From an uncultured Sphingomonadaceae bacterium (GTDB lineage Bacteria > Pseudomonadota > Alphaproteobacteria > Sphingomonadales > Sphingomonadaceae): a stretch of DNA of 64,000 nt. Position numbers and translations under genes: made by a program. Location: contig CANMVC010000002.1 of assembly GCA_947501325.1 (NCBI GenBank), forward strand, positions 1,178,001-1,242,000. Direction: 5' to 3'. Under the pieces are notes generated by a model. The model worked only from the letters and a program-made list of their open reading frames with translations, was not told where the DNA came from and did not search any database. The first letter of the stretch is position 1. The number at the start of each line of letters is the position of its first letter. Of this stretch, positions 12,901 through 30,249 are shown piece by piece.

Positions 12901-13044
12901 GGGTTGGCCAGCGATTGCAGCAGGTGGTTCGAAAGCATCGGTCAGCGCGCTTTGCAAATAAATAAAGCCCGCAACGCTGGCTATCAGCGCGATGACGATC
13001 AGCCCCAGCACGGCATAACCGCTCCATTTCATAACACGTTTCAT
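9904..13044 (-). CDS. GH106-type alpha-L-rhamnosidase, membrane-anchored
   Basis: A 1046-residue glycoside hydrolase. The GH106 signature region begins at residue 85 with PWARWWWPGGDVD and continues with ARGIGGVEIQSF. Further on are AESFVWINRDY and LLFASGVNQIIYHGMP, typical of this family, and a C-terminal beta-sandwich near VEGVASVSVNGTKIG. GH106 enzymes remove terminal alpha-L-rhamnose from glycosides; a characterised sphingomonad member is RHA-P of Novosphingobium. Residues about 8-31 form one hydrophobic helix with no cleavage site, so the enzyme probably faces the periplasm while anchored. It is the last gene of the TonB receptor-GH2-SDR-GH106 operon, 51 bp after the SDR. Actual substrate is unproven. 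Confidence 0.87.
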   Translation of the reverse strand: MKRVMKWSGYAVLGLIVIALIASVAGFIYLQSALTDAFEPPAAIAGQPSISTYADEAAPANIHYAPLRPPALDLQTLSAVDPSTRPWARWWWPGGDVDAKQTCEELRLMDARGIGGVEIQSFKIGLEKIEDEALQAKINSFASHDYYETLSATMTCAEQLGMDVYLNHLSGWPAGGPQVLLEDGLQSLASAHLDVQGGQTVRTSLPRPEPGFNAYILGLAEVFFGAHFGDFPSDRASFVSAVAMRRLGGEHSSNPLDVTDTIKLDSATAIVLDDYVTGNDIEWEAPAGDWTIVATYILPSGEAPTFGAHETPGYVLDHLRQDQVVGHYNWAFGNRTGLQDHYGKAFQGFFNDSLEFKVDRLAAHDILTEFEKRRGYDLRPHLPAVLVDATDNYFLWDVAHVDATPRYTLSENDARVRHDYKLTLSDLIIERFLETSANWAEARNLHSRGQSYGMDLDVIRALGANHIPEIEQLYAGGSTAFMKMAASAGALYNRPLITAESFVWINRDYAITPRQVKAAADLLFASGVNQIIYHGMPYDAKGEPYDNWFGDVPWHPFSGPANFSHFSENYGQGSLMWDAQPQLNAYMSRTQKLLQSGKPEIDVFIYYPWLGFPSFFDDTPGLSDEFLFEGCMPDADKPERGKPGIDLSGLPFFKAPKDDGDPRIAWLSRVSKLTQELDRRGMTWAWTNGHALEERGRRAGSGFHNDIEAVVVFETETMELSAAKALDFLANHGTQIRFFGKTPKRQNGFKNAGTGDEVLRARIAELSANRIATTQSQLVDQIAGSLTMAGNESVRRVRRVVGARETVDFFTNLSLKDSTSVLKLTGDDGLNRYWFDPMEGRVWRAADDNMGGLPLTLGPLEAVFLVSTPQTLDETGRPLSRLVRGKGVITRVLDDWTLKAGDIERVMKGRMIELREDEALKYSAGPMVYSSDFLLQGAAADESYVIDLGQVEGVASVSVNGTKIGKASAHPFLLDITDAARVGQNTIKVSVRPPLRNALVGRALAGDKFAEHMKTHENNLVRLGLVKPVRLFRVDGDGRRIGAAKP

Positions 13045-13095: not shown

Positions 13096-13917
13096 TTAAG
13101 CAGCAAAACGGCCTGATGTGTCGCAGGCGTCATAGTCGGACAATATGGCTTGCATCCGTTCCGCCACTGCGCTTTGCAGCTCCGGATGGGTGAAGATATG
13201 GAAGCGGTCCGCTTCGATGGAGTCCAGTGTCCAGTCGGCCACCATGCCCGGATCAATCCCTCCGTCCACCAGCGCTTTTACCGAGTCAGGCTCATCCGCT
13301 GCTGGCGCTTCGTCCCGGACGGACGGACGGTTTTCACCGCTCCTGTGGATGTTGGTGCGAACAAAGGCGGGACTGAGCACGCTGACCCCGATATTGTCCA
13401 TCGCCAATTCCAGCTTCAAACATTCAGAATAACCGACGACTGCGAATTTTGTCGCGGAATAGGGCGCCATATAGGGCGCGGGCAGATATCCGGCGATTGA
13501 GGCCGTATTGATAATATGACCACTTTGCTTCTGCCGCTGCATTATGGGCACAAAGGTTTCCACGCCGTGGACCACACCCATCAGATTAATATCTACTGCC
13601 CAGCGCCAGTCCTCAATCGGGGTTCCGCCCGCTGGTCCGCCAGCGCCGACGCCAGCATTGTTGAAAAGCAGATGAATCTCGCCCCGCGCCTTCAAGGCTG
13701 CCTCGGCGGCTTTTTCCACGCTTTCCAGGCTAGCGACATCGCATGCGACAGCGGTCACGCTAGAGCCAAGCTCGGCCTGGGCGGCCTCCAGCGCGGCCTC
13801 GTTCACATCTGCGATCACAACCCCGGCGCCGCGGGCTTTTAGAGTTTTGGCCAGCGCCAGCCCGATGCCGGATGCCCCGCCTGTTATGAAGGCGGACTTG
13901 CCATAGATGTCAGTCAT
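13096..13917 (-). CDS. Short-chain dehydrogenase/reductase (SDR)
   Basis: A 273-residue classical SDR. The cofactor motif TGGASGIG is near residue 11, NNAG near residue 90, and the catalytic Ser-Tyr-Lys is seen in NTASIAGY and YSATKF. The start at 13917 (MTDIYGKSAFIT) is chosen over a long in-frame extension to 14070, because it places the nucleotide-binding motif at the normal position and begins 10 bp after the GH2 stop. It has no signal peptide and would be cytoplasmic. In this operon it may oxidise or reduce a released sugar or aglycone (inference). Confidence 0.9.
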   Translation of the reverse strand: MTDIYGKSAFITGGASGIGLALAKTLKARGAGVVIADVNEAALEAAQAELGSSVTAVACDVASLESVEKAAEAALKARGEIHLLFNNAGVGAGGPAGGTPIEDWRWAVDINLMGVVHGVETFVPIMQRQKQSGHIINTASIAGYLPAPYMAPYSATKFAVVGYSECLKLELAMDNIGVSVLSPAFVRTNIHRSGENRPSVRDEAPAADEPDSVKALVDGGIDPGMVADWTLDSIEADRFHIFTHPELQSAVAERMQAILSDYDACDTSGRFAA

Positions 13918-13927
13918 TATTCTATCC

Positions 13928-16402
13928 TCATCGTTGCGCGCGGCTTGCTGGAGACGCGGCGGGTTTCGTATCGGATCCGGGTGAAGTAGATGGCAGGCGA
14001 AACGGTGGGTCGGGAATGGCCTTGCCGACATGATCATAGCCAATTTTCCGTCGGCTATAGACCGGGTCAAAGGCGCCGGTTGGCGACGTCAGCCGAGCGA
14101 CGACCAGCAGCCGTTTCGTTTCCGGAATATTGACAGGGATGCTGATATCCTTGCGGACCAGCGGGTCGAGAACCAGCTCCATCGGCCGTGAACGGGATTT
14201 CACCCGCCCGCTGTTATCAACAATGAAGATATCCGCAATTACCGCTCGCTCTTCATAATCATCATTGAGCAGGATCAATGGCACTTTGGCCTGCTGCCCG
14301 TGCGGATAGGATGCTTCATCCCAGGCGCGCAGATAGATGAGCTGTGGCGCGAAGGCGCTTTTTGCATATCGCTGCCAACGTGGTTCCAGCTTCAGATTTT
14401 CAACATCGATAAAGCTGTCACAAGTTTTGCTGGTCGATTTCACCTCCCAGCTTTCGGGAATATCGGCTGCGTCATCGCATTTCGACAAATATACAAAATG
14501 CTGCACCCCGGCATAGCCGCGCATTGCCCGCCAGTAAGCCGTAAGCTCCGCCATTATATAAGCATAGCCTTCCAGATATTCCTGCGGCGTTAGCGTTTTG
14601 CCTTCTGCAATATTGTCAAAGGACAGCTTACCCAATTCGGTCGGCCGACCGCGATGCGTGACCCATAAAAATCCATATTCGTTGTTGATAAACGGATGCT
14701 CAAGTGCGCCGGAATAGGTAGCGAACGGCCCCCAGGTGGCTTGCGGTGGCTGCCCATCCATGGTTGTGAAATCATCCAGCGAATACCGGCGATCATTCAT
14801 GTTGAGCGCACCCCCGGCATTCAGCTTATAGGGGTGCTCCTCAATCGGGTCGTTGAGGCCAACCGGCGGTCTGTAACCGCCATTTTCCCATTGGCGGGTC
14901 GGATCCATGTCACGCACACGCCGGATCACTTCGTCGGATATCGGATTGTGATTTTCATTGGCCGCATCCCACCAACCGATAGACGCATGGTTCCAGTTTT
15001 CACTCACCCATCCGCGAAATTCTTTTTCAAGCTCCGCGACAGACCAGCTGGCTGACTCCGTATTACGAACCACAGACCAGAAGCTATATTCGTCAGCCAC
15101 GATAAAGCCGATCTCGTCCGCCATATCATACCAGAAATTCGGCATGCGTCCGGTATGGTTGCGAAATGAATTCCAGTGAAAATCTTTAGGATGACCGCTC
15201 AACAATTCGCGCACCCATGCCTTGTTCCATGGCAATTGCCCGCGCTGTGCATCCTCGAAAAACCGGTGCAGGCCGATATTGGTACCGCGCAGATAGTAGA
15301 GCTTGTTATTCAGGTAAAAGCCCTTGTCCGCACCGCTGCGCCATTCCACCTTGCGCATTCCAAATCTTTTTACCCTATCATCGCTTGGCATAACCGCGCC
15401 GTCAGCATCTACCCGACCCAGCTGCGCGTGCACCTGATAGAGAAATGGGTTTTCGGGCGACCACAGCTCATAATCCTGCATATCGACCGTCTGCTCCACC
15501 AGCTTGGTTTCTCCGGCCGGCACTGTGATGTCGATTTCTGTGCTTAGGGTATCAGCAGCGCTACCGTCTTTCCACGGCTGGACGTCTTGCACCAATATGC
15601 CGTTATAGTCTTCGGCGCCGCTGTTGCGGACGATCGTTTTGATTCTAACCAAGCCATTATCGATTTCGGGTTCAATTTTTACATTTGCAATTGATGCCTG
15701 ATCCGTCAGAATCAGGCTGACCGTGTCCCATAATCCGGGATACCATCTTTCTTTTTCATCATCATCACCCGCCGGGACAAAACTGGGCAGCTGGCTACGA
15801 TCCGCGCCCAGCCGAACGACCAGTTCATTGGTCTGGCCAAACTTAATCGCATCAGAAGCATTATATTCGGACAGCGAAAACGTCCCGAAATGCTCACCCA
15901 ACGGCTGTCCGTTGAGCCAGACTTTGACACCGTTCTTCGCTTTGTGGAGGCATAAAAATGCCTGCGCGGATTCTTTTTCAGGCGCTTTGAATTCAGTGCG
16001 GTACCAGAACACATCGCGCTGACCGCTTTCTATGCCCGTTTCAGTGAAAGCCGGACGCGCATCGGTGATGAGCCCGGGAACCGGCGCTTTATGACCATAG
16101 GTTTCCGGCAGCGTGTCCGACATTTTACTTTCGGCCACGTCCCATGTGCCATCCAGCATCAATGTACGGCGTGTTTGTTCACCCCAGTCGACATGGCTGC
16201 CTTGACATGCAGCAACCGGATAAGATCCTTCGACCGTCGCTTCATAATCATCGGACGGCTCAAAAGTGGTCAACCAGCTTGAAATCGTCTCGTTGTTCAG
16301 CATCCACGTCACGATAAACGCACGGTTAAACCAACCGACGGCGAGTAGCACGAGGATTACCGCAAATAGTGTCGCAAGAATTTTAGGAAGCGATTTCAGC
16401 AT
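13928..16402 (-). CDS. GH2 family glycoside hydrolase, membrane-anchored
   Basis: An 824-residue GH2 enzyme: N-terminal anchor helix (about residues 7-24), sugar-binding jelly roll (about 80-235), Ig-like domain (about 240-345) and TIM barrel. The acid/base is probably Glu483 in DAANENH and the nucleophile Glu575 in FINNEYGF. A C-terminal beta-domain follows. GH2 members include beta-galactosidases, beta-glucuronidases, beta-mannosidases and others; the exact specificity is not readable here. It starts 20 bp after the TonB receptor gene and is followed at once by the SDR. Confidence 0.9.
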   Translation of the reverse strand: MLKSLPKILATLFAVILVLLAVGWFNRAFIVTWMLNNETISSWLTTFEPSDDYEATVEGSYPVAACQGSHVDWGEQTRRTLMLDGTWDVAESKMSDTLPETYGHKAPVPGLITDARPAFTETGIESGQRDVFWYRTEFKAPEKESAQAFLCLHKAKNGVKVWLNGQPLGEHFGTFSLSEYNASDAIKFGQTNELVVRLGADRSQLPSFVPAGDDDEKERWYPGLWDTVSLILTDQASIANVKIEPEIDNGLVRIKTIVRNSGAEDYNGILVQDVQPWKDGSAADTLSTEIDITVPAGETKLVEQTVDMQDYELWSPENPFLYQVHAQLGRVDADGAVMPSDDRVKRFGMRKVEWRSGADKGFYLNNKLYYLRGTNIGLHRFFEDAQRGQLPWNKAWVRELLSGHPKDFHWNSFRNHTGRMPNFWYDMADEIGFIVADEYSFWSVVRNTESASWSVAELEKEFRGWVSENWNHASIGWWDAANENHNPISDEVIRRVRDMDPTRQWENGGYRPPVGLNDPIEEHPYKLNAGGALNMNDRRYSLDDFTTMDGQPPQATWGPFATYSGALEHPFINNEYGFLWVTHRGRPTELGKLSFDNIAEGKTLTPQEYLEGYAYIMAELTAYWRAMRGYAGVQHFVYLSKCDDAADIPESWEVKSTSKTCDSFIDVENLKLEPRWQRYAKSAFAPQLIYLRAWDEASYPHGQQAKVPLILLNDDYEERAVIADIFIVDNSGRVKSRSRPMELVLDPLVRKDISIPVNIPETKRLLVVARLTSPTGAFDPVYSRRKIGYDHVGKAIPDPPFRLPSTSPGSDTKPAASPASRAQR

Positions 16403-16422: not shown

Positions 16423-18876
16423 TCAAAATTTCAAAGCCAGGCGCGCGCCCCATGTTCGCTGAGCCTCAAACGTGCGAAACTGGGCATAGCCACCCTCATC
16501 AAAGGGCATCGGCACAATGGCTGCGACAAAATTTTCGTTTGTGAGATTGCGGCCAAATAGGGACATGGTGGCCCGCCCATCCCAAAATGTGACGCCAACT
16601 TGCGCATCAACCAGAGTGTAGGCATCAATCCGGCTTTGCGGGTCGTTAGAAACGAGACTGAGCGCATCATCGCGATACTGAAATCCGCCCTGAATATAGG
16701 CGTCAACGCCTTCGCTGACGTTGAAATCATATCGAGCAAGACCGTTAAGAATCCATTCTGGCGCATTTGCTAGCGGTGCTCCGGAAAGATCCTGTGCCGG
16801 GGTGGTCGCAAGATTGCCAGGGTCATCGGGATCAATCCTGACTTGCACGCATCCTTGTGCCTCTGTCTGGAGACTATAGCATGGTGCTTGCTCGAAGCTT
16901 TTATACTTGGCGTCATTATAGGACAGGGCCCCTGACAAAGTCAGGCCATTGACCGGCATGAAACTAACATCGACCTCCACACCTTTTGAAACAGCCTTCG
17001 CGGCGTTTGAAAGGGACACAACCAAAGTATTGTCCGGACCGCGAACCAGTGATTGCGCTTGCAAATCCTTGATCGTGGTGTGGAATGCCGTCACGCCGAT
17101 CTGAAGACGATCGCTCAAACTGCGATAACGAAGACCAGCCTCAAATTGCAGGGGCTTTTCCGGGCGGGCAATAGGCAGTCGTTCATCGCCATCGGATGCG
17201 GCTTCGACTATATCCTCACCTGTCACCAGGGCTGCTGATTTATAACCCTGGGTAGCGGTTGCAAACATATTGAAATCATCTGAAAAGTCATATTTTGCAC
17301 CAAGTCGCCACGTCACGGCATCGTCATCATTTGCAACCGAAACCCTGCCCGGATCAAGAACACGGAACAGGAATGGCGCGACAATCAATGGTGAAACCGA
17401 TGTCGGCGTCTGTGCCAATGATTGGCCGGCTTTCAGTTCAGACCGCAAGAGTCGCAATCCGCCGATCAGCGAGAATTTGGGTGTCACCTGATATTGGCCC
17501 TGCCCGAAAATCGCATAATTATGCTCCTCGAAATCTGAGGCAAAATCTGTACCGGTCAAGCCCGGAGCCGGCAATATCGGCGGCAGAACGCCCGGGGCAA
17601 ACGATCTCAAATTCAAGCCACCCGTACCAACCTGTCGATTGAACTGGTCTATTTCCTGCCAGAAATAATAAGCGCCCAGAGTGTAAGTCAGCTTCGTGTC
17701 ACGCGGTGAGGATAATCGAAATTCTTGGCTGAATTGTGATTGTTGCTGCGCGCCGGAATTAATCAGCAGGAAGGGCTGTGGAATAAGATCAGCATCTTCT
17801 TCCGAAAAAGTGTCCCACTCACGCCAAGCCGTCAGTGAGGTAAATTCAAGCTCTCCCCAATTCGCCGTCAACTCGGCAGAGAGTCCGTTCACTTCACTTT
17901 CCGCGATCCAGTTAGCGTCAGAAGCGATCTGCCTGTTTTTGGGACCCGGTATTATACCGGCTCTCAGCGACTCCAAGCCAATGGCATTAAATGCTCCAGG
18001 CCCAAGACTTGGCAAAAGTCCTGTGCCTGGGACGTCTGGCGATAGCTGCCTGTATGTCAGGCCACCGGGCGTATTATCCCGGCGCGAATGATCCACGTTG
18101 AGCAACAGATTTACCGAATCGCTGAATTCGAAATTGATCTTGGCTCGAAACCCATATTCGTCCCGATCCGCTAGATCCCGTTGAGGAGCATTAGGATTGA
18201 TATTCTCGATGAAACCATCTCGCGTGTTGCGGTATCCCGAGATGCGGGCAGTTACATTGTCACCCAGTGGCCCTGATATTGCACCGGACAGATTAACTTC
18301 GTCAAACGAACCATAAGCCACGTTCATTTCGGCCGTTAGGTCATTTGTTGGGCCCTTGGTAATGATCGAGAGGACACCGCCAGAAGCATTTTTCCCGAAC
18401 AGCGTTCCTTGTGGTCCGCGTAGTATTTCCACGCGTTCGACATCGGAAAAATCAAAGAGACCCGCACCTGTTCGCCCAATGGTAACACCGTCAATCGACA
18501 GCGCTACACTTGCCTCTACACCAATATTGAAGACGCCCACCCCAACTCCGCGAATGGTCATCGCCGATTGGCGCGCATTGATACCGCTACTGAAAAGAAG
18601 GCCGGGTGCAACATATTGAAGCTGTTCAAAGCTATCAATTTGACGATCCTGCAACTGGTCACCCGAAACGACTGTAGTAGAAATGGGCACATCCTGCAGA
18701 TCTTCCTCAACCTTTTGTGCTGTCACGATAATAGTGTTGAATCCAGCATTCTCGTCTTTGCTGCTTATGTCGCCGGTTCCGTTGGCCTCCGTTTGCGAAA
18801 ACGCGGGCTGAGAGCTGATGAGCGCTCCCAGAATAATTGAAGACGTAAGTAACAAGTTCTTGTGCCGACAGGCCAT
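16423..18876 (-). CDS. TonB-dependent outer-membrane receptor
   Basis: An 817-residue receptor with signal peptide (cleavage after PAFSQ), TonB-box-like NTIIVTAQKVEED, plug domain (DVPISTTVV, then MTIRGVGVG and VERVEILRGPQGTLFGKN) and a C-terminal barrel ending in Phe. The start at 18876 is chosen because GGGAGG lies 6 bp upstream; the ATG two codons earlier abuts that Shine-Dalgarno. It begins a four-gene operon with GH2, SDR and GH106, so it likely imports the glycoside across the outer membrane. There is no SusD partner, as expected outside Bacteroidetes. Its promoter carries three palindromes. Confidence 0.93.
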   Translation of the reverse strand: MACRHKNLLLTSSIILGALISSQPAFSQTEANGTGDISSKDENAGFNTIIVTAQKVEEDLQDVPISTTVVSGDQLQDRQIDSFEQLQYVAPGLLFSSGINARQSAMTIRGVGVGVFNIGVEASVALSIDGVTIGRTGAGLFDFSDVERVEILRGPQGTLFGKNASGGVLSIITKGPTNDLTAEMNVAYGSFDEVNLSGAISGPLGDNVTARISGYRNTRDGFIENINPNAPQRDLADRDEYGFRAKINFEFSDSVNLLLNVDHSRRDNTPGGLTYRQLSPDVPGTGLLPSLGPGAFNAIGLESLRAGIIPGPKNRQIASDANWIAESEVNGLSAELTANWGELEFTSLTAWREWDTFSEEDADLIPQPFLLINSGAQQQSQFSQEFRLSSPRDTKLTYTLGAYYFWQEIDQFNRQVGTGGLNLRSFAPGVLPPILPAPGLTGTDFASDFEEHNYAIFGQGQYQVTPKFSLIGGLRLLRSELKAGQSLAQTPTSVSPLIVAPFLFRVLDPGRVSVANDDDAVTWRLGAKYDFSDDFNMFATATQGYKSAALVTGEDIVEAASDGDERLPIARPEKPLQFEAGLRYRSLSDRLQIGVTAFHTTIKDLQAQSLVRGPDNTLVVSLSNAAKAVSKGVEVDVSFMPVNGLTLSGALSYNDAKYKSFEQAPCYSLQTEAQGCVQVRIDPDDPGNLATTPAQDLSGAPLANAPEWILNGLARYDFNVSEGVDAYIQGGFQYRDDALSLVSNDPQSRIDAYTLVDAQVGVTFWDGRATMSLFGRNLTNENFVAAIVPMPFDEGGYAQFRTFEAQRTWGARLALKF

Positions 18877-18895
18877 TTTCATCCTCCCATAGTGA

Positions 18896-18907
18896 ACACT
18901 TAAGTGT
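18896..18907. promoter_or_regulatory. Perfect 12-bp palindrome in the TonB receptor leader
   Basis: ACACTTAAGTGT is a perfect palindrome about 20 bp upstream of the receptor start codon, between it and the GTCCA-NN-TGGAC site. It may be a second regulator site or chance; no other copy was noticed. Confidence 0.35.
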
Positions 18908-18926
18908 CTTTATGAATCTGATATTC

Positions 18927-18938
18927 GTCCATTTGGAC
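18927..18938. promoter_or_regulatory. Candidate operator 1 (GTCCA-TT-TGGAC), TonB receptor promoter
   Basis: GTCCATTTGGAC, centred about 56 bp upstream of the receptor start. The same 12-mer occurs twice between the symporter and carboxylesterase genes and once with a single mismatch upstream of the CocE/TetR pair. A perfect TTTGTC-AATC-GACAAA inverted repeat adjoins it (18941-18956). Confidence 0.7.
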
Positions 18939-18940
18939 TA

Positions 18941-18956
18941 TTTGTCAATCGACAAA
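18941..18956. promoter_or_regulatory. Inverted repeat TTTGTC-N4-GACAAA
   Basis: A perfect 6-bp inverted repeat with a 4-bp spacer, two bases from operator 1. TTTGTC also abuts operator 2 at 20537-20542, so this element could be part of an extended regulator site. It is upstream of the receptor promoter and downstream of the symporter stop. Confidence 0.35.
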
Positions 18957-19061
18957 TCCGGCCTCTGACAGAAAATCGTCCGTCTGTGTGGTTTTCTCGC
19001 TCTCTTGGGGACGATATATTGCCATTGCAGATGCCTTTCGGCGCCCATACTGATCCGGTTC

Positions 19062-20450
19062 CTAGGATTTTCCAGTCAAACTCTCGTCTGCGATTCGTTT
19101 ATTCGCAGCAATCGCCTGAACTATTTCAGCATGTCGATCCTGATCGAGATCGAACCGTCGCGCGAGTAAAAGACAAACAATATAAAATGCCATTGGAACA
19201 AGGGAGACCAGATACCGAAGCCCCTCTTCCGCCTCTGGCGTTTGCACTTCATTTGCCCGGTATCCGACAAGATCGAGGCCTATTCCCAATATACCAACCG
19301 CAACACCCAGGGACACTTTTTGCGCAAAAGCCATCAGGCCATAGATTACTCCTTCCGCGCGAACGCCCGTCTTCCATTCTCCGAATTCCACGGTGTCCGG
19401 CATTGCCGCAGAAATTGACAGATAGACGGCGCCCGTCCCCACAGCTCCGAAGACCATCAGTGGAACGACAAGAGCTGGCGACGAATGAGCCAGCAGAAAA
19501 AGCGCGCCATTGACTGTAATGGAAATGGAAAATGCACTGAGGAGAACAAATTTCTTCCCCCGCCGCTTCGCAACCCAGCCCCAGAAAGGAACCGCAAGAG
19601 CGATCGTGAGCGCATAGCCTCCAGCGAACAAACCAAAGAGTGACTCTGATCCAAGATTATATTTCAGGAAATAGAGACCGGACTTTCCGCCTATCGTCGC
19701 GCCGCTGCCGCCAATGAATATAATGGCAAACAGCAGCCAGAACGCTGAGTTTTTTGATAGCATCTCGATGATATGACCGATGCTGGGCAGCGGTTCTTCT
19801 GAATCGGCCAGCGATTCACTTTCGCGGGTCACAGCAAAACACACCAGGATCGCCACCACCGAAATAGCTGCATAGATCATGGCTGTCCGCCCGAACCCCA
19901 CCGCCAGGTCGCCATCTCCAAGCGCCTTGGAAAGATCCAATGTAAGCCCGGCGACCAGCGCACCCGATATCGCCGCAAAGAGCAGCCGCCAGACCACCAG
20001 CGAACTGCGCTCGTCAGCATTTTTCGTGAGCCGAGCGATCAGTGAATGATAGGGAATGGCCACCACCGTATAACATGTGCGAAACAACAAATGCGTCGCA
20101 GCAACAAAAACGATAAGCTCGGTCCCTTCGAGATCGGGTCGGTAGAACATCAGCGAGAGAGACAAGGCCAGCGGCACACAGCCGAACAGCATATAGGGCC
20201 GATACCGGCCCCAGCGCGTTCGCGTCCAGCTAGCAAGCACTCCAATCACAGGATCCGTAATGCCGTCCCAGATCATCGCCGCCATAATGATGGTGCCAGC
20301 AACGGCATTGGGCAAACCGACGGCATCGGTATAATAGAATAGAACAAAAGTGTTGGTGATATTCCAACCGATTGAAATCCCGAAATCGCCGAAACCGAAC
20401 CCGATCCGGGAACGCAAAGTTGTCGTCGCCGCACCAGGGTCGGCGAGCAT
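19062..20450 (-). CDS. GPH-family glycoside/sugar:cation symporter (MFS)
   Basis: A 462-residue inner-membrane transporter with about 12 helices. GFGFGDFGISIGWN near the N-terminus, DAVGLPNAVAG, WDGITDPVIGVLA and RWGRYRPYML match the glycoside-pentoside-hexuronide symporter family. The start at 20450 (MLADPG) gives the usual family length. An in-frame ATG at 20537 would add 29 hydrophilic residues and would place operator 2 only 6 bp upstream of the start codon. It is divergent from the carboxylesterase and lies upstream of the TonB receptor operon in the same direction. It probably imports the processed glycoside from the periplasm. Confidence 0.9.
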   Translation of the reverse strand: MLADPGAATTTLRSRIGFGFGDFGISIGWNITNTFVLFYYTDAVGLPNAVAGTIIMAAMIWDGITDPVIGVLASWTRTRWGRYRPYMLFGCVPLALSLSLMFYRPDLEGTELIVFVAATHLLFRTCYTVVAIPYHSLIARLTKNADERSSLVVWRLLFAAISGALVAGLTLDLSKALGDGDLAVGFGRTAMIYAAISVVAILVCFAVTRESESLADSEEPLPSIGHIIEMLSKNSAFWLLFAIIFIGGSGATIGGKSGLYFLKYNLGSESLFGLFAGGYALTIALAVPFWGWVAKRRGKKFVLLSAFSISITVNGALFLLAHSSPALVVPLMVFGAVGTGAVYLSISAAMPDTVEFGEWKTGVRAEGVIYGLMAFAQKVSLGVAVGILGIGLDLVGYRANEVQTPEAEEGLRYLVSLVPMAFYIVCLLLARRFDLDQDRHAEIVQAIAANKRIADESLTGKS

Positions 20451-20542
20451 TTTATCGCTTGCTACGGTCACGCGAAGGCTCTGCAAAAAGCGCGCAGCCG
20501 ATCCGGTTTGGCCAAGTCCATTGTCATCCTCTCCCATTTGTC

Positions 20543-20554
20543 GTCCAAATGGAC
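20543..20554. promoter_or_regulatory. Candidate operator 2 (GTCCA-AA-TGGAC), symporter promoter
   Basis: GTCCAAATGGAC is the exact reverse complement of operators 1 and 3. It is centred about 98 bp upstream of the preferred symporter start and 76 bp from operator 3, suggesting shared control of the divergent genes. Confidence 0.7.
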
Positions 20555-20618
20555 TACTTTCAGTTTATCGTAGTTCAGTCAATGCCGATTAACCCAAACG
20601 AGGAATATTTCTTTTTAC

Positions 20619-20630
20619 GTCCATTTGGAC
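20619..20630. promoter_or_regulatory. Candidate operator 3 (CGTCCA-TT-TGGACG), carboxylesterase promoter
   Basis: GTCCATTTGGAC with one extra matching base pair on each side (CGTCCA/TGGACG, 20618-20631), the best palindrome of the set. It is centred about 73 bp upstream of the carboxylesterase start. Confidence 0.72.
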
Positions 20631-20697
20631 GATTTTTGTTGCGTGCATGAGTTTGATCGGCAATTAAGAGCTCAAGAACAGACGTTTGGAGGGATCA

Positions 20698-22476
20698 TTG
20701 ATTAGTCGTATCGCCGCGGGAATCGCCTTGTCGCTTTGTCTGACGGCCTGCGGAAATCCGCTGGAAGCTGCGCCGGCGCCAGTCGAGGATGACGATACCC
20801 GGCTGACTCTGAATAACGGACAGATAATCGGGTTCAAATCCAGTGACGGAGCGCATGTCTGGCGGGGCGTGCCATTCGGCGCATCGACTGCAGGGGCAAA
20901 TCGTTGGCGCGCACCACGCCCTGTTGCGCAATGGGACGGCGTTCGCTCTGCCATCGCACCCGCATCGCCCTGCCCGCAATTTTCCAGAGAGAAATCCATC
21001 GCCGGAAAACTGACCGGATCGGAAGACTGTCTATATCTGAATGTCTACGCTCCCCCAAATGCAACAGACCGTAATCTTCCTGTCATGGTTTGGATCCATG
21101 GCGGCGCCCATGTCTGGGGCATGGCCAGCGAGCGCGACGGTTCCAAACTTGCCACTGGTCAGGATGTTATTGTCGTAACGGTCCAGTATCGGCTCGGTCC
21201 ACTTGGTTTTTTCGCTCATCAATCCCTGCGGGAATCGGCTGAACAGCCTTTAGATAAAGCCGCGAATTTTGCTCTTCTCGATTTGATCGCCAGCCTGAGG
21301 TGGGTTCGGGAGGAGATTTCCGCTTTTGGTGGTGATCCGAACAATGTGACTATTTTTGGTGAAAGTGCCGGCGGTCAAAATATCGCCGCCTTAATCGGCT
21401 CTCCGCTGGCGAAGGGTCTTTTTCACAAAGCCATTATGCAGTCAGGGGGCTTCGACAGCGTGCCTCTAAGCAAAGCCGAGCATGCCAATAGCGATTATTA
21501 CAATCCAGCTGCGGTGGTTGTCGACAAGCTTGGCTTTCGGGGTATTGACAGCAAAAAAACCGCGCGAGCGCTTCGGGAGACTTCCGTCGCTGATCTACTC
21601 GCCGTTTATGCAACTGAGAAAATAGCGGCCAATGCGCGGTTTCGCTATAATGACGGGGAACCCGAATTCCCCAATATTCCTTCCGTAATTTCCGACGGTG
21701 TGACTTTGCCGCTGGCTCCGCTTCGGTCCCTGTTGTCCAATCAGGCGACTTTTAATGCTGTGCCAATGATCATGGGCACGAACCGGGATGAACTCAAAGC
21801 CCTCTTCCAGGCTGACCCCGCGCTCGTAAAGAAACATCTTGGCCTTTTCCCGGCTGCACGAGACCAGCGTCTTTATGATTTGATAGCGGAATATGCCAGT
21901 CGGCTCTGGCGAATCCATGCCGTGGACGAACCCGCATCACAGATGGCGCGTGCCGGCCATAAGGCGGTCTGGGCCTACCGCTTCGATTGGGACGAAAGCG
22001 GGTCCATCGGGATGACCAACCTTGCCAAACTCTTCGGCGCTTCGCACGGTTTTGAAACGCCTTTCGTCTTTGGCACTTTCGATGATTTCTCTGACGAACT
22101 AAAATATTTGTTTCCCGACAAATATGCCGAAAGCCGCGATGCCCTAAGTGCAGTTATGAGTGAATATTGGGCCGCCTTTGCGCGCAGCGGACAACCCCGT
22201 CGATCAGCCGGCCCAGAATGGCCGCGCTATACGAATGGACCACAGCGCCAACTTATGCGGTTCGACAGTGAAAGAGACAAAGGTGTTGGAATTCTGCCCG
22301 GCGCAGACTCCATGGGTAGATGGATTGCCGATTTGCAGAATGACAAAAGGATTTCGCAAACGGATTTATGCGCGATCCTGACCGTGCTCAAGACATATCA
22401 CGACGGACATGTAATTCCTCCTCCTGCCCGCCGCCAAATAAACGCCTTACGGCAATCCCAATGCCCTACCGGATAG
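20698..22476 (+). CDS. Type-B carboxylesterase, predicted lipoprotein
   Basis: A 592-residue alpha/beta-hydrolase of the carboxylesterase type B family. The nucleophile is Ser223 in FGESAGGQN, the oxyanion region is WIHGGAHVWG, and the probable catalytic His is in GASHGFETPF. Residues 1-18 form a lipoprotein signal ending in LTAC, so the enzyme is expected on the periplasmic side of a membrane. The start is a TTG at 20698 with GGAGG five bases upstream; another in-frame TTG at 20686 lies too close to that site. It opens a rightward unit with GH3, under operator 3. It likely removes acyl esters from the glycoside (inference). Confidence 0.9.
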   Translation: MISRIAAGIALSLCLTACGNPLEAAPAPVEDDDTRLTLNNGQIIGFKSSDGAHVWRGVPFGASTAGANRWRAPRPVAQWDGVRSAIAPASPCPQFSREKSIAGKLTGSEDCLYLNVYAPPNATDRNLPVMVWIHGGAHVWGMASERDGSKLATGQDVIVVTVQYRLGPLGFFAHQSLRESAEQPLDKAANFALLDLIASLRWVREEISAFGGDPNNVTIFGESAGGQNIAALIGSPLAKGLFHKAIMQSGGFDSVPLSKAEHANSDYYNPAAVVVDKLGFRGIDSKKTARALRETSVADLLAVYATEKIAANARFRYNDGEPEFPNIPSVISDGVTLPLAPLRSLLSNQATFNAVPMIMGTNRDELKALFQADPALVKKHLGLFPAARDQRLYDLIAEYASRLWRIHAVDEPASQMARAGHKAVWAYRFDWDESGSIGMTNLAKLFGASHGFETPFVFGTFDDFSDELKYLFPDKYAESRDALSAVMSEYWAAFARSGQPRRSAGPEWPRYTNGPQRQLMRFDSERDKGVGILPGADSMGRWIADLQNDKRISQTDLCAILTVLKTYHDGHVIPPPARRQINALRQSQCPTG

Positions 22477-22530
22477 CGAAATGACGCAATATTTTGATCA
22501 ACTCCTTGAACCAGCAACAGAATTGAAACC

Positions 22531-24600
22531 ATGACAACATCTTCTGCCGATCACGCCCTTATCGAGAAAGAGCTCGACGACCTTATTCCGACACTGAGTC
22601 TCAAAGAAAAGGTAGCGATGATGTCGGGAAAAGACTTTTATAAATATTATTTCACCGTCGATAATCGCCAATTTGGCGTGCGCCCCTATAATGCCGGTGG
22701 CGGATGCGATCGGATCGGTCTGCCGCCGCTCAGCTATGCCGACGGGCCAAGAGGTGTACGCCTCCCAAATGGCACCACTTGTTTCCCCGTTTCCATGGCC
22801 CGCGGCGCAAGTTGGGATGTCGAACTAGAACGAAGAATCGGTGTTGCGATGGGCGTCGAAGCCCGCGCCCTTGGTTTGACCTTGTTGAGCAACGTCTGCA
22901 TCAATCTGCTGCGGCACCCGGCTTGGGGACGATCCCAAGAGACTTATGGCGAAGACCCTTACCATCTGGGAGAGATGGGCGCAGCTCTGATAGAGGGCAC
23001 ACAATCCCAAAATGTCATGGCCACTGCCAAACACCTCGCCGCCAACAGCATCGAGAACGCCCGATTCAAGGTCGACGTCACCGTCTCTGAACGCGTGCTC
23101 CGAGAGGTTTATCTGCCACATTTCAAACGGGCGGTAGATGCCGGATGTGCAACGGTCATGTCCGCATATAACCAAGTTAACGGCCATTATTGCGCTCATA
23201 ATAAGCAGCTTTTGCGGGATATTCTAAAGGACGAGTGGGGTTTCGAGGGCTTCGTCCACTCAGACTGGGTGAAGGGCGTTTACGGTGCCGACGCCGCCGA
23301 ATCGGGACTCGACATAGAGAATCCCGAACCCACGTTCTTTGGTGAAGATCTGATTTACGCGGTTAAGAGTGGCGAAACGAAGGAAGCCGTGGTCGACGAA
23401 GCAGTACGCCGAATCTTACGCATGCAGTTGCGGTTTTCTCGTGCTGCCGACCCGCGAACCTATTCGGAAAGCGATATCGGCTGCGCAGCGCATACAGAAC
23501 TTGCTCGTGAGGCCGCTGAAAAAAGTATGGTTCTTCTGAAAAATGATGACGCGCTGCCTCTTGCCAAAGACGGCGCCCGGATCGCGGTACTGGGAAAACT
23601 GGCAGACAGAGTGAACCTAGGTGATCATGGATCATCCAACGTGACACCACCTTATGCAGTCACGCCTCTTGCTGGTATTGAAAAACACGCCGCGGAGCTT
23701 GTCAAATTACAATCAGACACAAGCGGAGACCCATCTGCCTCCGCGACGCTCGCAGCAAATAACGACGTAGCAATTGTAGTCGTGGGCTATACCTATTTCG
23801 ACGAAGGCGAGTTTATTCCCGGGGACGTGGCCCTTGAGGAAGTTGAAGATGAAGAAGAAGCCCATCGAGGCGGGGACCGCAATTCACTACACCTTCCGGG
23901 GCCCGATGTTGATCTCATCAAATCAGTAGCAGCAACCGGAACAAAAATGATTGTCTGCGTGATGGGTGGCGGCGCAATTATGATGGACGAATGGTTCGAG
24001 CTCGCCGACGCTGTTCTGATGATATGGTATCCGGGAATGGAGGGCGGCACGGCTCTCGCGCGCATCCTGTTCGGTGATGTTTGTCCGTCCGGCAAACTGC
24101 CTTTTTCCATTCCCGCCGACGAGAGTCACCTGCCCTATTTCGACAAACACGCGGACGATATTACTTACGGAATGTATCACGGTTACACCCTATTTGACCG
24201 GGACAGCGTCACCCCCGCGCTGCCATATGGTTTTGGCTTGTCTTATACGCAGTTCGACTATGGCGAACCTTTACTCGAAATCATCGGCGACCTTGCGCGC
24301 ATTCGTGTTGAAATAACGAATAGCGGAACTGTCGCCGGCGCCGAGATCGCCCAGCTATATGCCGGTTTTAAGAACAGTGAGATTGATCGACCTAGCAAGC
24401 TGCTGCGGGGATTTGAACGAGTAGAGCTCGCAGCAGGGGAAACGGCGATGGTGGAATTCACGCTCAATCGCACCGCATTTACCCATTATGATGAAGAGGC
24501 AAAAGGCTGGCGTCTGGATGCCGTTCCTTTCGATATATTTGTCGGCCCTTCATCGGACACCTTAACATGCTGCGCGACTCCATTGGTTTGGGACGACTAA
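22531..24600 (+). CDS. GH3 family beta-glycosidase
   Basis: A 689-residue GH3 enzyme, probably a beta-glucosidase. The N-terminal barrel has YADGPRGVRLP, the KHLAANSIE segment (GH3 KH motif) and the nucleophile Asp245 in FVHSDWVKG. The alpha/beta-sandwich domain (AREAAEKSMVLLKND) and a C-terminal fibronectin-III-like domain (YGFGLSYTQFDYG onward) follow. No signal peptide is visible, so it should act in the cytoplasm on imported glycoside. It follows the carboxylesterase by 54 bp in the same direction and converges on the CocE-type gene 17 bp away. Confidence 0.92.
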   Translation: MTTSSADHALIEKELDDLIPTLSLKEKVAMMSGKDFYKYYFTVDNRQFGVRPYNAGGGCDRIGLPPLSYADGPRGVRLPNGTTCFPVSMARGASWDVELERRIGVAMGVEARALGLTLLSNVCINLLRHPAWGRSQETYGEDPYHLGEMGAALIEGTQSQNVMATAKHLAANSIENARFKVDVTVSERVLREVYLPHFKRAVDAGCATVMSAYNQVNGHYCAHNKQLLRDILKDEWGFEGFVHSDWVKGVYGADAAESGLDIENPEPTFFGEDLIYAVKSGETKEAVVDEAVRRILRMQLRFSRAADPRTYSESDIGCAAHTELAREAAEKSMVLLKNDDALPLAKDGARIAVLGKLADRVNLGDHGSSNVTPPYAVTPLAGIEKHAAELVKLQSDTSGDPSASATLAANNDVAIVVVGYTYFDEGEFIPGDVALEEVEDEEEAHRGGDRNSLHLPGPDVDLIKSVAATGTKMIVCVMGGGAIMMDEWFELADAVLMIWYPGMEGGTALARILFGDVCPSGKLPFSIPADESHLPYFDKHADDITYGMYHGYTLFDRDSVTPALPYGFGLSYTQFDYGEPLLEIIGDLARIRVEITNSGTVAGAEIAQLYAGFKNSEIDRPSKLLRGFERVELAAGETAMVEFTLNRTAFTHYDEEAKGWRLDAVPFDIFVGPSSDTLTCCATPLVWDD

Positions 24601-24617
24601 CGGTTTGTTGGCAATCT

Positions 24618-26393
24618 TCAGCGGGCGTTCGAAACCAGTGGCAGGCTCACCGACCCTCCATAAACTGTTTGTGTCGCAACCACCGGCCCGGCTTTCGCAC
24701 TCCATAGTCCAGCCAGGTTAAAATGCGGCGCAAATGCTGGCGCATTGGAGGACGAAATATCCAGGCGGATCCGACTGCCCGCCATTAGCGTCCAATCAAT
24801 CGGCACCATAGGAAAATTCAGGGCCACACCAGTATCGGGTGCATATTCCGTCTCAACCCTATCCCCTTCCCGGGCTGATAGGGCCAGAATATCATCGCGA
24901 ATGTTCAAGATGCGTCCATCCTCAAATATTTCCGATACCCGAACGAAGAAGGCCGTATCCTCAGCATTGCTCGACACATCAAGCTTTACGTTTATCGAGC
25001 CAGCAATACGACGAGACGTCAGCGACGACGCTGAAACGAAAGACAAGATATCGGGGCGTTTGCAAGCGGCGTCTCCTTGGGAAGCTACCGCCGGCGGCGA
25101 CACCGAAGCGTTTAGCATGTAAGCTCCGCCAACGGTTGGAGCTGGCGATGCCGGATCATATGTGAACTTTGCCACTGACCGCTCGACGGTGGCTTCACCT
25201 TCCATGGCGAGCACACCAGCACAGTTAGAAGCCTTGTCCAATTTTGTAAGCTGCAGGTTGTGCCTTTGGCTCGCGGGTGGCCAAGATGCTGATTTCGTCC
25301 AGCGATCTGCACCGTTGCGGTAATATAATATCCCCGGAGACAGGTAATCGGGCAGCGGTTTTCCCCGCAGATGATGGTCAAGCCAAGCAAGCGAAGATCG
25401 AAAATATTGCACGGACTGATCCTCAACTGATAGATCACCAGTCTGTCCTGCATGCTCGCCAGGCTGTATGATAAGAGTGCTTTGCGCGCGCGTGGGCAAG
25501 GTCGTAAAGCGTTCAAGTGTACCTTCGAGGAAAAAATCATGCCAGCCGGCAACCCACAATACGGGAATATCGATGGCTTCATGCGCCCTTCGTAATTGCC
25601 TGTACTCCGCGCTTTGCCAATAGGCATCACTCCGCAGCGGATGGCTGATGAAATTTCGATAATCAGACCATGCAGCGCCAAAAATATTGGGATCAACGTC
25701 CAAAGCTGGCCGTGCCGTTATAACCTGAGATTTCCAGATTTCAGCAGCATCTTTATTTTTCCCTGATGGCATAAAAAGCTCTGTCGACCAAAGACCTGTA
25801 ACCCCTTGCGCAAAATGTCCTCCACGATAGACAATATCGTAGACGTCTCCGTGTCCAAGCATGGGTATAATCGTCTTGACCTCCGGCGGAAGGCGGTCGG
25901 CAACCGCCCATTGCGAAACGGCAAGATAAGAAAAGCCAATCATAGCAATATTGCCATCTTGCCAGTTCTGATCAACCAGCCAATCTAAGGTTGCTTTACC
26001 GTCTTTTGCTTCGTTGACGAACGGGCGCCATTTTCCTTCTGAACCAAATCTTCCGCGAACATCTTGGTGAACGCATGCATAGCCGTAGCGCACAAGCGGG
26101 TGACAAAAGAGATATTTGTTGAAGCTGTAGGCATCGCGGACCAAAACTGCCGGCCAAGGCCCTTTTCCTTCGGGCAGGAAGACTTCTGTCTGCAGCTCTA
26201 TACCATCATCCATCTCGACCCGAAAATCGAGAGTCCGTCCGGCCTCGTGCGTATAGGCCGGTTTGTCACCCAGATAAGGCGCAACGCCCTGTTCCACAAA
26301 ATATTCCAGCAAATCCGCGCCGAAAACAACGAGCATAAGGGCGCCGGCGCCAAAAGTGATAGCGGCCCATTTGATGATGGCACGCCCCGTCAT
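24618..26393 (-). CDS. CocE/NonD-family alpha/beta hydrolase (X-Pro dipeptidyl-peptidase S15-like), membrane-anchored
   Basis: A 591-residue hydrolase. The N-terminal helix at about residues 8-30 is a membrane anchor. The S15 catalytic domain holds RDAYSFNK, HQDVRGRFGSEG and the nucleophile Ser155 in GFSYLAVSQWA, followed by a cap region and a C-terminal jelly-roll domain. The family includes cocaine esterase, glutaryl acylases and other esterases and amidases. The ATG at 26393 is preferred, with GGGAG eight bases upstream, over an in-frame ATG at 26465. It is divergent from the TetR gene with operator 4 between them, so it probably belongs to the glycoside regulon. Confidence 0.88.
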   Translation of the reverse strand: MTGRAIIKWAAITFGAGALMLVVFGADLLEYFVEQGVAPYLGDKPAYTHEAGRTLDFRVEMDDGIELQTEVFLPEGKGPWPAVLVRDAYSFNKYLFCHPLVRYGYACVHQDVRGRFGSEGKWRPFVNEAKDGKATLDWLVDQNWQDGNIAMIGFSYLAVSQWAVADRLPPEVKTIIPMLGHGDVYDIVYRGGHFAQGVTGLWSTELFMPSGKNKDAAEIWKSQVITARPALDVDPNIFGAAWSDYRNFISHPLRSDAYWQSAEYRQLRRAHEAIDIPVLWVAGWHDFFLEGTLERFTTLPTRAQSTLIIQPGEHAGQTGDLSVEDQSVQYFRSSLAWLDHHLRGKPLPDYLSPGILYYRNGADRWTKSASWPPASQRHNLQLTKLDKASNCAGVLAMEGEATVERSVAKFTYDPASPAPTVGGAYMLNASVSPPAVASQGDAACKRPDILSFVSASSLTSRRIAGSINVKLDVSSNAEDTAFFVRVSEIFEDGRILNIRDDILALSAREGDRVETEYAPDTGVALNFPMVPIDWTLMAGSRIRLDISSSNAPAFAPHFNLAGLWSAKAGPVVATQTVYGGSVSLPLVSNAR

Positions 26394-26470
26394 ATTGTCT
26401 TCTCCCTCTTCAATGGCACGCGTTGCAAGTGCCGAGATTAGCTGCATGATTCGCATGGTCAACATAATTC

Positions 26471-26482
26471 ATCCAATTGGAC
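26471..26482. promoter_or_regulatory. Candidate operator 4 (ATCCA-AT-TGGAC), CocE/TetR intergenic region
   Basis: ATCCAATTGGAC differs from GTCCA-NN-TGGAC at one outer base. It lies between the divergent CocE-type (83 bp) and TetR (about 95 bp) starts and would allow autoregulation. Confidence 0.6.
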
Positions 26483-26570
26483 GCATTGACCTACTCGCTA
26501 ACTCGCACTAGCTTACTCGCAGCAGGATTGACGCCAATCGCCTGATAAAAGGGATTGTTCGCGTCATCAT

Positions 26571-27281
26571 ATGAAGTCGGGGGTTAATAGACAGATGAGC
26601 AAGGCAAAGGTGGCAGCTATGGAACCGTCTGAGACAAATATAGATAGTCTGAACCACCGCGTTCCCGTGCAGGCCCGCTCGAAACAAAAGCGTTCCGAAA
26701 TATTGCATCAGGCCCGGATCATCTTTGCCGAAAGAGGATGTGATGCGGCAAACGTCAGGGACATCGCGGCAGCAGCGAAGACCACGCATTCCATGATTCG
26801 ATATCATTTTGGTACCAAGGGTCAGCTGTGGCGGGAATCGGTCAGGGACATGTTTGAGCTGTTGGATCAAGCGCTCGCATTGGACGATGAATCCTATTCC
26901 ACATTAGGTGGGTTGGACGGTTTCAAAGCCTATTTGCAGCGCTACATCCGCTATAGTGCAGCCCATCCGGAACATGCGCGAATTATGATCATGGAATCTG
27001 TTCGCGGCGGCGACAGGCTGGATTGGATTGTCGAGACATTCATTCGACCACTCCACAAAAACCTGAGTGAGCGCTTCGAAAACAGCGGTGGGATTAATGG
27101 CATGCCCAACATGCACCCAGTTTCTTTCGTCTACATTCTGACGGCAGCCTGCCAGATGCCGTTCGTCCTCGCTCAAGAGGCAAAAGCTCTTTACGGCGTC
27201 GACACTTTGGCCCCTGAGATGGTTGAAACGCACGTTGATTCCGTGATGAACCTCTTTTTCGAGGGGCGCTCAGTAAAATAG
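26571..27281 (+). CDS. TetR/AcrR-family transcriptional regulator, likely local repressor of the glycoside locus
   Basis: A 236-residue TetR protein. The helix-turn-helix occupies about residues 59-84 (DAANVRDIAAAAKTT, MIRYHFGTK), and the C-terminal part is a ligand-binding domain. The start is uncertain: in-frame ATGs at 26595 and 26619 also exist, the last with AAGG eight bases upstream. It is divergent from the CocE-type gene. The intervening palindrome matches sites at the receptor, symporter and carboxylesterase promoters, so it is the best candidate to bind them. The inducer is unknown. It is followed 65 bp downstream by a second TetR gene. Confidence 0.88.
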   Translation: MKSGVNRQMSKAKVAAMEPSETNIDSLNHRVPVQARSKQKRSEILHQARIIFAERGCDAANVRDIAAAAKTTHSMIRYHFGTKGQLWRESVRDMFELLDQALALDDESYSTLGGLDGFKAYLQRYIRYSAAHPEHARIMIMESVRGGDRLDWIVETFIRPLHKNLSERFENSGGINGMPNMHPVSFVYILTAACQMPFVLAQEAKALYGVDTLAPEMVETHVDSVMNLFFEGRSVK

Positions 27282-27346: not shown

Positions 27347-27970
27347 ATGGAGCAACATTCAAAAGAAAGTACACGCGTCCGGCTGATCGAAGCAGCGATG
27401 GTTCTTTTTGCTCGTAACGGTCTTGATGGGGTTTCCCTGCGGGCTGTAAATCAGGCTGCAAAGGCGAAGAATTCTGGCGCAACCCACTATCATTTCAAAA
27501 ACCGCCTTGGACTGATCCGGGCCATGGTCGAACACATCAATACTGCAACACCTAGCGAGGTGGATTTGATCTTGTCCAGTTTACCCATTGGGGACGACGA
27601 GCAATTAAAAGCTATAGCCAGTTTCTTCAGCCCCGTTCTTGTAATGCGCTATTTGCGCCCCAAAGGAGAAGACGCGTTAGGGTTTCTTTCCCAACTCCTG
27701 CAAAGTCATGATCCTAATATTCAAGCCATTTGGGAGCCGGTTTTCGGCCGGGGCAAGAAAAAAGACCTCCAAAGGATATTTGATGTTTTCCCCAACCTCG
27801 ATTCGATAGTTATCAAGCGGCGCCTCATTTACTCGACCCTGAATATCGTGCACGGCCTTGCGAATGATAGCGGGCTGCACCGGACGATGTTCGGTGACTT
27901 GTCGATGAGTGACGGCCCAGAGACTTTGGTCGATCTCCTTCAATATATTAGGGGCGGTCTTGCTAACTGA
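27347..27970 (+). CDS. TetR/AcrR-family transcriptional regulator
   Basis: A 207-residue TetR protein. The DNA-binding domain is at about residues 10-55 (RLIEAAMVLFARNG, VNQAAKAKN, THYHFKNR). The remainder is helical and unassigned. It is convergent with the flavin monooxygenase and overlaps its stop by 8 bp. It could control that gene, the SCP2 gene or both, but no clear operator was found near them. GTGAGAC before the ATG serves as a weak Shine-Dalgarno. Confidence 0.88.
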   Translation: MEQHSKESTRVRLIEAAMVLFARNGLDGVSLRAVNQAAKAKNSGATHYHFKNRLGLIRAMVEHINTATPSEVDLILSSLPIGDDEQLKAIASFFSPVLVMRYLRPKGEDALGFLSQLLQSHDPNIQAIWEPVFGRGKKKDLQRIFDVFPNLDSIVIKRRLIYSTLNIVHGLANDSGLHRTMFGDLSMSDGPETLVDLLQYIRGGLAN

Positions 27971-30173: not shown

Positions 30174-30249
30174 TGGTGGAGCCTAGCGGGATCGAACCGC
30201 TGACCTCTTCGCTGCCAGCGAAGCGCTCTCCCAGCTGAGCTAAGGCCCC
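30174..30249 (-). tRNA. tRNA-Ala (GGC)
   Basis: A full cloverleaf reads leftward: acceptor GGGGCCT paired with AGGCTCC plus encoded ACCA, D-stem GCTC/GAGC, anticodon stem CTTCG/CGAAG around loop CTGGCAG (anticodon GGC), and T-loop TTCGATC between AGCGG and CCGCT. It reads GCC codons. Confidence 0.97.

Follow-up and report, generated by a model that had tools for sequence, protein, structure and literature searches.

When genes for the uptake and breakdown of one compound are spread over several start regions on both strands, what holds them under common control? This question is raised by a gene cluster in a 64,000-nucleotide stretch of DNA from an uncultured Sphingomonadaceae bacterium (GenBank assembly GCA_947501325.1, contig CANMVC010000002.1, positions 1,178,001 to 1,242,000), here called the window, in which four short palindromes lie in front of genes for a TonB-dependent receptor, a GPH symporter, an esterase and a CocE/NonD hydrolase, the last being divergent from a gene for a TetR-type protein, TetR1. 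A reading of the sequence alone had proposed TetR1, placed at 26571-27281, as the regulator and the palindromes as its operators, and comparison with other genomes supports it: the four palindromes are very likely operators of TetR1, which would hold down four start regions. We take this view because both congeners with TetR1 retain the sites along with the cluster, because loci encoding TetR1 relatives hold variants of the palindrome near TetR and upstream of similar kinds of genes, and because the palindrome's outer base varies with the TetR recognition helix.

Four palindromes in one cluster

The sites stand exactly where the sequence-only reading had located them, at 18927, 20543, 20619 and 26471. 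It had put them 56-98 bp upstream of the genes; they are indeed upstream, and the distances become 44-112 bp when counted from the starts used here (receptor 18882, GPH 20471, esterase 20698, CocE 26393, TetR 26595). Its statement that the window has no further copies holds for exact ones, none of GTCCANNTGGAC being present in the 64 kb beyond the cluster, and fails for copies with one mismatch, two of which lie at 190 (GCCCATTTGGAC) and 63181 (GTCCACTTCGAC). With a symmetric matrix made from 12 sites of three species, the window sites being included by construction, the four sites score 22-25 bits and the next best spot in the window scores 11.

The genome as a whole, 3.58 Mb in 18 contigs, has four exact copies of GTCCAWWTGGAC, three of them inside 1.7 kb of the window and the other at G000:C1:951089, and sites of the GTCCANNTGGAC form are also found at C2:694248 and C3:148998. 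At up to one mismatch the genome-wide count of GTCCAWWTGGAC is 25, compared with 23 for a backward control; as this is about the level of the control, the signal lies in the exact cluster and not in the motif at large. Such a count might suggest that the palindromes are products of chance, or else short hairpins or terminators, and a terminator-type scan does flag two of them (20618-20631 and 26483-26470). These flags are raised because T-rich DNA comes after the sites, and the location upstream of genes, the stems of 5 bp, and the conservation and clustering above controls leave such an explanation with practically no probability.

Conservation among congeners

TetR1 has orthologs in two congeners, G128 (91% identity) and G099 (87%), both of which retain the whole cluster with all four sites. 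In the aligned promoters of the three species the operators appear as conserved blocks: operator 1 is identical in all three, as is the ATCC arm of operator 4, and operators 2 and 3 have constant arms and variable centres. A TTGAC box adjoins operators 1 and 4, and another lies 23 bp from operator 2. Among 32 genomes of the genus, exact sites number four in the window genome, four in G099 and three in G128, nine of these 11 being in the cluster, and the other 29 genomes together have 11 exact sites against 16 for the backward control. A search of the whole genome of G128 found no RTCCAWWTGGAC outside the cluster; G099 has one extra copy, within an open reading frame (ORF) that reads as a sensor kinase. 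Because 29 of the 32 genomes have no close TetR1 ortholog, the glycoside cluster may be a variable island. One of these 29, G105, has four scattered GTCCAWWTGGAC sites on three contigs (C7:3819, C7:71241, C12:54797 and C22:65579).

The putative regulator

TetR1 belongs to the TetR family, as its helix-turn-helix matches TetR_N (PF00440) at 38.5 bits against a cutoff of 24; its C-terminal part has weak matches to TetR_C_3 and TetR_C_29, both below cutoff. The predicted model (40 sequences; pLDDT 84.0, pTM 0.78) has the all-helical two-domain TetR fold, and its top structural matches are structures of the TetR family, with RutR chains ranked first by both Foldseek and VIA-align 2. TetR1 is thus predicted to have a RutR-like fold, a likeness that does not by itself establish function. 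By sequence, TetR1 is not a RutR: it scores 39.3 bits with the RutR family model TIGR03613 of NCBIfam, where the cutoff is 368, RutR chains are absent among the 21 matches listed in a single-sequence search, and a profile search finds RutR at 8e-15, with several other TetR proteins ranked higher. No rut gene was found among the 10 proteins scanned, the neighbours of TetR1 being glycoside genes.

A family of palindromes near TetR1 relatives

Does the palindrome accompany TetR1 beyond the genus? At the family level, 14 of 397 genomes have a match to TetR1 at 1e-25, and several of these relatives lie next to genes for a GPH symporter, a receptor and GH3. From a species collection, related loci were then gathered with an alignment of 11 TetR1 relatives, the best 80 of 252 confirmed ones being taken. 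The motif scans use 79 of these (1.46 Mb), with the G128 locus (L078) left out, and selection was made solely by the presence of a TetR1 relative. An unbiased scan for inverted repeats, covering all 5-base half-sites and spacers of 0-12, ranked TATCC-N4-GGATA first (53 copies in 36 loci against 0.67 expected); second came TTATC-N6-GATAA, a repeat overlapping the first, and in third place was ATCCA-N2-TGGAT (23 copies in 21 loci against 1.26 expected); TTCCA-N2-TGGAA was found 17 times against 1.49 expected. From this result the TetR1 clade appears to use a common form, xTCCRnnYGGAx', of which the GTCC of the window would be one version and ATCC the commonest. This form gives 47 sites in the 400-bp flanks of TetR in 38 of the 79 loci, compared with 0, 3 and 2 sites for three rearranged controls, and its core, CCRnnYGG with two more pairs, is present in the flanks of 48 loci, five control cores being present in 5, 3, 7, 13 and 16.

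The sequence-only reading had suggested looking for the motif near the same kinds of genes in related genomes. By a strict rule, 53 of 82 loci (the window, L065 and L078-L157) have a site either close to where a matched gene begins or immediately behind TetR; the gene starts are extrapolated from tblastn and approximate. Arranged by neighbour, the sites are found at the receptor (30), GPH (16), TetR (13), behind TetR (10), at the esterase (8), GH3 (7), CocE (2), GH2 (1) and GH106 (1). The proteins of the window have matches in the 80 related loci as follows: GH3 in 53, GPH in 48, the receptor in 43, the esterase in 18, SDR in 14, the flavin monooxygenase (FMO) in 9, CocE and GH106 in 7 each, GH2 in 2 and TetR2 in 1; the receptor, SDR and GPH being large families, these matches indicate kinds of genes rather than proven orthologs.

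Could a protein other than TetR1 read the sites? A regulator encoded elsewhere might bind them, TetR1 relatives being mere neighbours, since neighbourhood is no proof of binding and any motif common to 79 loci selected by TetR1 would surface in such scans. This is very improbable in our view, as the motif is more frequent than controls in the 400-bp flanks of TetR and changes with the TetR1 helix (see below), which an unlinked regulator would leave unexplained. Another candidate is TetR2 (27347-27970), the other DNA-binding protein of the cluster, which is kept in both congeners and present in the congener loci L064 and L065. A separate place for TetR2 is found in one of the 80 related loci, that of the congener L078, whereas the motif family occurs near TetR1 relatives throughout and its outer base follows the helix of TetR1; we accordingly give TetR2 as the binding protein hardly any credence.

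The recognition helix and the outer base of the probable operator

In the predicted model the recognition helix comprises residues 73-80 of the 236-amino-acid reading of TetR1. His73 is invariant in 40 aligned sequences, and residue 74, the second of the helix, varies together with the outer base of the operator. Among the 53 loci with sites, which are related by ancestry and do not provide independent counts, Ala or Gly at 74 goes with outer base A in 38 of 39, Thr with T in seven of seven, and Ser with G in five of seven, the other two Ser loci having A (L093) and T (L096). Ser74 together with GTCC is seen in five loci: the window, both of its congeners, Hyphomonas atlantica (L079) and Novosphingobium (L102). 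Labels G and T need at least three changes each on the tree, compared with about 6 and about 8 for shuffled labels; judged by this tree, the outer-base labels would be clustered by descent, yet not of single origin, and the three changes may represent one gain and two losses.

A further 22 loci were compared with this rule, two of them copies of earlier ones and two others (L076 and L179) being one and the same place. L068 and L074 fit but were known beforehand, and L182 (Gly74, with ATCC about 50 bp before TetR) is the sole new case that fits. L174 (Gly74) has an ATCC site 500 bp behind TetR; L186 (Gly74), with a GTCC site about 800 bp off, violates the rule; L176 and L183, both with Ser74, have paired sites of the TTGACCA-nn-TGGTCA type next to TetR. 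No near site was found in the remaining loci. Many TetR proteins of this set have no His73 and fall outside the clade.

We lean, by a modest degree, to a wider view: that a widespread, undescribed clade of TetR proteins with the RutR fold controls loci for the uptake of glycosides in alpha-, beta- and gammaproteobacteria, in which the core CCR-nn-YGG would have been kept and the outer pair rewritten several times, with residue 74 as the main, context-dependent switch. Searches of the open-licence literature of PMC, a scope outside which most subscription papers fall, gave no description of the clade, of its operator or of a regulon of this sort among the matches listed.

Several observations weigh against assigning the four sites to TetR1. 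In promoter scans none of the operators showed a consensus sigma-70 promoter, and operator 4 is an imperfect palindrome. With one mispair allowed, the core is present in 63 of the 79 loci, a weak test because the controls reach 37, 13, 28, 51 and 51. L149, with G as outer base, breaks the Gly74 rule, Ser74 alone is insufficient to fix the outer base, and shared ancestry lowers the force of all such counts. In addition, the strict rule leaves 29 of the 82 loci without a site. Eight of these 29 (L128, L134, L135, L137, L145, L150 and L153, at about position 10001 or the start of TetR, and L114; seven of Phenylobacterium and one other) have an asymmetric site, CC(A/G)nn(T/C)GGGC, also written CC(A/G)nn(T/C)GGGCAATAA, just before TetR; the eight belong to one clade, with recognition helices of the EHSL type, and the site is present in 8 of 8. 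L126, which shares its genome with L070, contains AACCAATTGGTT in the space between GH3 and TetR, and 20 of the 29 stay unexplained.

How TetR1 might act

How would the sites work? In the proposed mechanism, a ligand-free TetR1 dimer would sit on the four operators and repress four start regions, which would serve the receptor, GH2, SDR and GH106 genes, the GPH symporter, the esterase and GH3 genes, and CocE opposite TetR1 and TetR2. A glycoside product or its aglycone would free TetR1 from the DNA, so that uptake and breakdown would be switched on jointly. We infer binding, repression, autoregulation, operon structure, ligand and substrate from the data described here. The arrangement in operons (receptor-GH2-SDR-GH106, esterase-GH3 and TetR1-TetR2) is suggested by strand and small gaps.

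TetR1 might bind the same sites and mainly activate, or act in both ways. Activation is conceivable at operators 2 and 3, which are separated by 76 bp in the intergenic space of divergent genes, and at operator 4, beside its TTGAC box. Operator 1, by contrast, immediately follows a TTGACA box without mismatch (minus strand, 18948-18943) and fills the gap after this box, where a repressor would block polymerase, and most characterized TetR proteins are repressors. Activation is therefore unlikely, and we retain repression as the probable mode.

Genes of the cluster

The features are collected in Table 1. Three starts are most likely further inside than the longest reading frames would have it, namely those of TetR (26595 rather than 26571), CocE (about 26393 rather than 26465) and GPH (about 20471 rather than 20537), as set by comparison with the congener loci L064 and L065. 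The esterase probably begins with TTG at 20698 behind GGAGGGA, its start and lipobox being judged by eye. At 20447-20537, a strong GGAGAGG precedes a frame of 19 codons (ATGACAATG...TGA), the stop codon of which overlaps the GTG at 20471, the probable start of GPH; the frame may be nothing, as congener sequences diverge there.

Table 1. Positions in the window of the four palindromes and of the genes of the cluster.
Feature	Position	Strand	Sequence, evidence or remarks
Operator 1	18927..18938		GTCCATTTGGAC; 44 bp before TonB receptor start (18882)
Operator 2	20543..20554		GTCCAAATGGAC; 71 bp before GPH symporter start
Operator 3	20619..20630		GTCCATTTGGAC; 67 bp before esterase start; esterase-GH3 downstream
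Operator 4	26471..26482		ATCCAATTGGAC; common to CocE (77 bp) and TetR1 (112 bp); imperfect palindrome
GH106-type, alpha-L-rhamnosidase-like	9904..13044	minus	PF17132, 138.6 bits (cutoff 29)
SDR oxidoreductase	13096..13917 (longest ORF to 14070)	minus	PF00106; 274-aa ortholog in congener locus L064
GH2-type glycosidase	13928..16402	minus	PF00703 and PF02836 over cutoff
TonB-dependent receptor	16423..18882	minus	PF00593 and PF07715
GPH cation symporter	19062..20471 (longest ORF to 20537)	minus	TIGR00792, 336 bits (cutoff 231)
Type-B carboxylesterase	20698..22476 (longest ORF from 20686)	plus	PF00135; lipoprotein-like N-terminus
GH3 glycosidase	22531..24600	plus	PF00933 and PF01915; closest solved chain, beta-glucosidase 7ms2
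CocE/NonD hydrolase	24618..26393 (longest ORF to 26465)	minus	TIGR00976, 306 bits (cutoff 66)
TetR1, proposed regulator	26595..27281 (longest ORF from 26571)	plus	PF00440, 38.5 bits (cutoff 24)
TetR2, second TetR-type gene	27347..27970	plus	PF00440, 26.2 bits (cutoff 24); 65 bp behind TetR1
FMO	27963-29471		closest relatives of solved structure are monooxygenases of cyclohexanone and phenylacetone
tRNA-Ala (GGC)	30174-30249		right of cluster

What is the substrate? The GH106-type protein scores 247 with NF049897 of NCBIfam, where the cutoff is 1300. Together, GH106, GH3, GH2, the two esterase-type enzymes and SDR would fit an acylated, rhamnose-bearing glycoside of the saponin, terpenoid or flavonoid type. 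That the enzymes point to such a glycoside, perhaps with a terpenoid-type aglycone, is a tentative assignment and may well be wrong.

Two candidates for further membership were considered. The exact copy outside the window, CGTCCAAATGGACT at G000:C1:951089-951100 (L001:1501-1512), precedes by about 260 bp an ORF apparently coding for a flavin monooxygenase similar to that at 27963-29471. As a fifth site of the regulon it is taken to be a chance occurrence, though not disproved, because it is missing in G128, the extra site of G099 is elsewhere and the background amounts to 11 sites in 29 genomes. The FMO gene of the cluster was left out of the regulon, having no matrix site and none seen upstream, yet it is matched in nine of the 80 related loci, as listed above.

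Significance

The regulon itself is of an ordinary, known kind; what goes beyond the sequence-only reading is the wider clade with its drifting operator. With a regulator named, the four palindromes become a regulon open to testing, and in sphingomonads and Hyphomonadaceae the sites may help to predict the genes that serve one glycoside. It is a long-standing question how a regulator can change jointly with several operators while control is kept, and if the view of the clade is true, these loci would represent a natural experiment in such joint change of a regulator and its operator set. They offer a set of naturally occurring TetR variants and the operators that go with them, so that the ATCC, mixed ATCC/GTCC (operator 4), GTCC and TTCC forms could be compared with a few purified proteins.

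Comparison with known systems

RutR, the nearest solved fold, is E. coli YcdC, the regulator of pyrimidine utilization, and its consensus operator is TTGACCAnnTGGTCAA, a sequence that the search of open-licence literature did not confirm. Paired palindromes of the TTGACCAnnTGGTCA type, 29 bp apart, stand by distant TetR relatives at L176:2121-2165 and L183:1404-1448 and resemble this consensus; beside the TetR gene of L176 are ORFs that look like genes for an FAD monooxygenase and a sodium:solute symporter. RutR is described as binding a palindrome of about 16 bp, and Lys52, where its helix 3 begins, has been modelled to contact guanine by comparison with QacR (PMC10891134). TetR1 differs from RutR in that its sequence falls far under the RutR cutoff and its neighbours are glycoside genes.

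Carbohydrate utilization loci with TonB receptors are known as CUT loci. Those described from Xanthomonas and aquatic bacteria (PMC1790865) combine an outer-membrane receptor, an inner-membrane transporter, glycosidases and a local regulator, as the cluster of the window does. The window cluster differs from the Xanthomonas-type loci in its TetR-like regulator, its two esterase-type hydrolases and its SDR. The saponin-degrading genes described from Sphingobium sp. RC1 are similar in their GH3 and GH106 enzymes, which there act on plant saponins, and the main text of that paper contains neither 'TetR' nor 'TonB' (PMC10653915). Finally, EdcR, the estrogen-responsive TetR repressor of Caenibius tardaugens, is described with a different operator, TnnCnnTACnAnTnGTAnnGnnA, and with the C-terminal domain TetR_C_11 (PMC8700777), whereas TetR1 has its below-cutoff matches to TetR_C_3 and TetR_C_29. 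The two systems are alike in having a TetR gene next to its own catabolic operons, a host of the sphingomonad type and palindromes in several promoters (PMC8700777).

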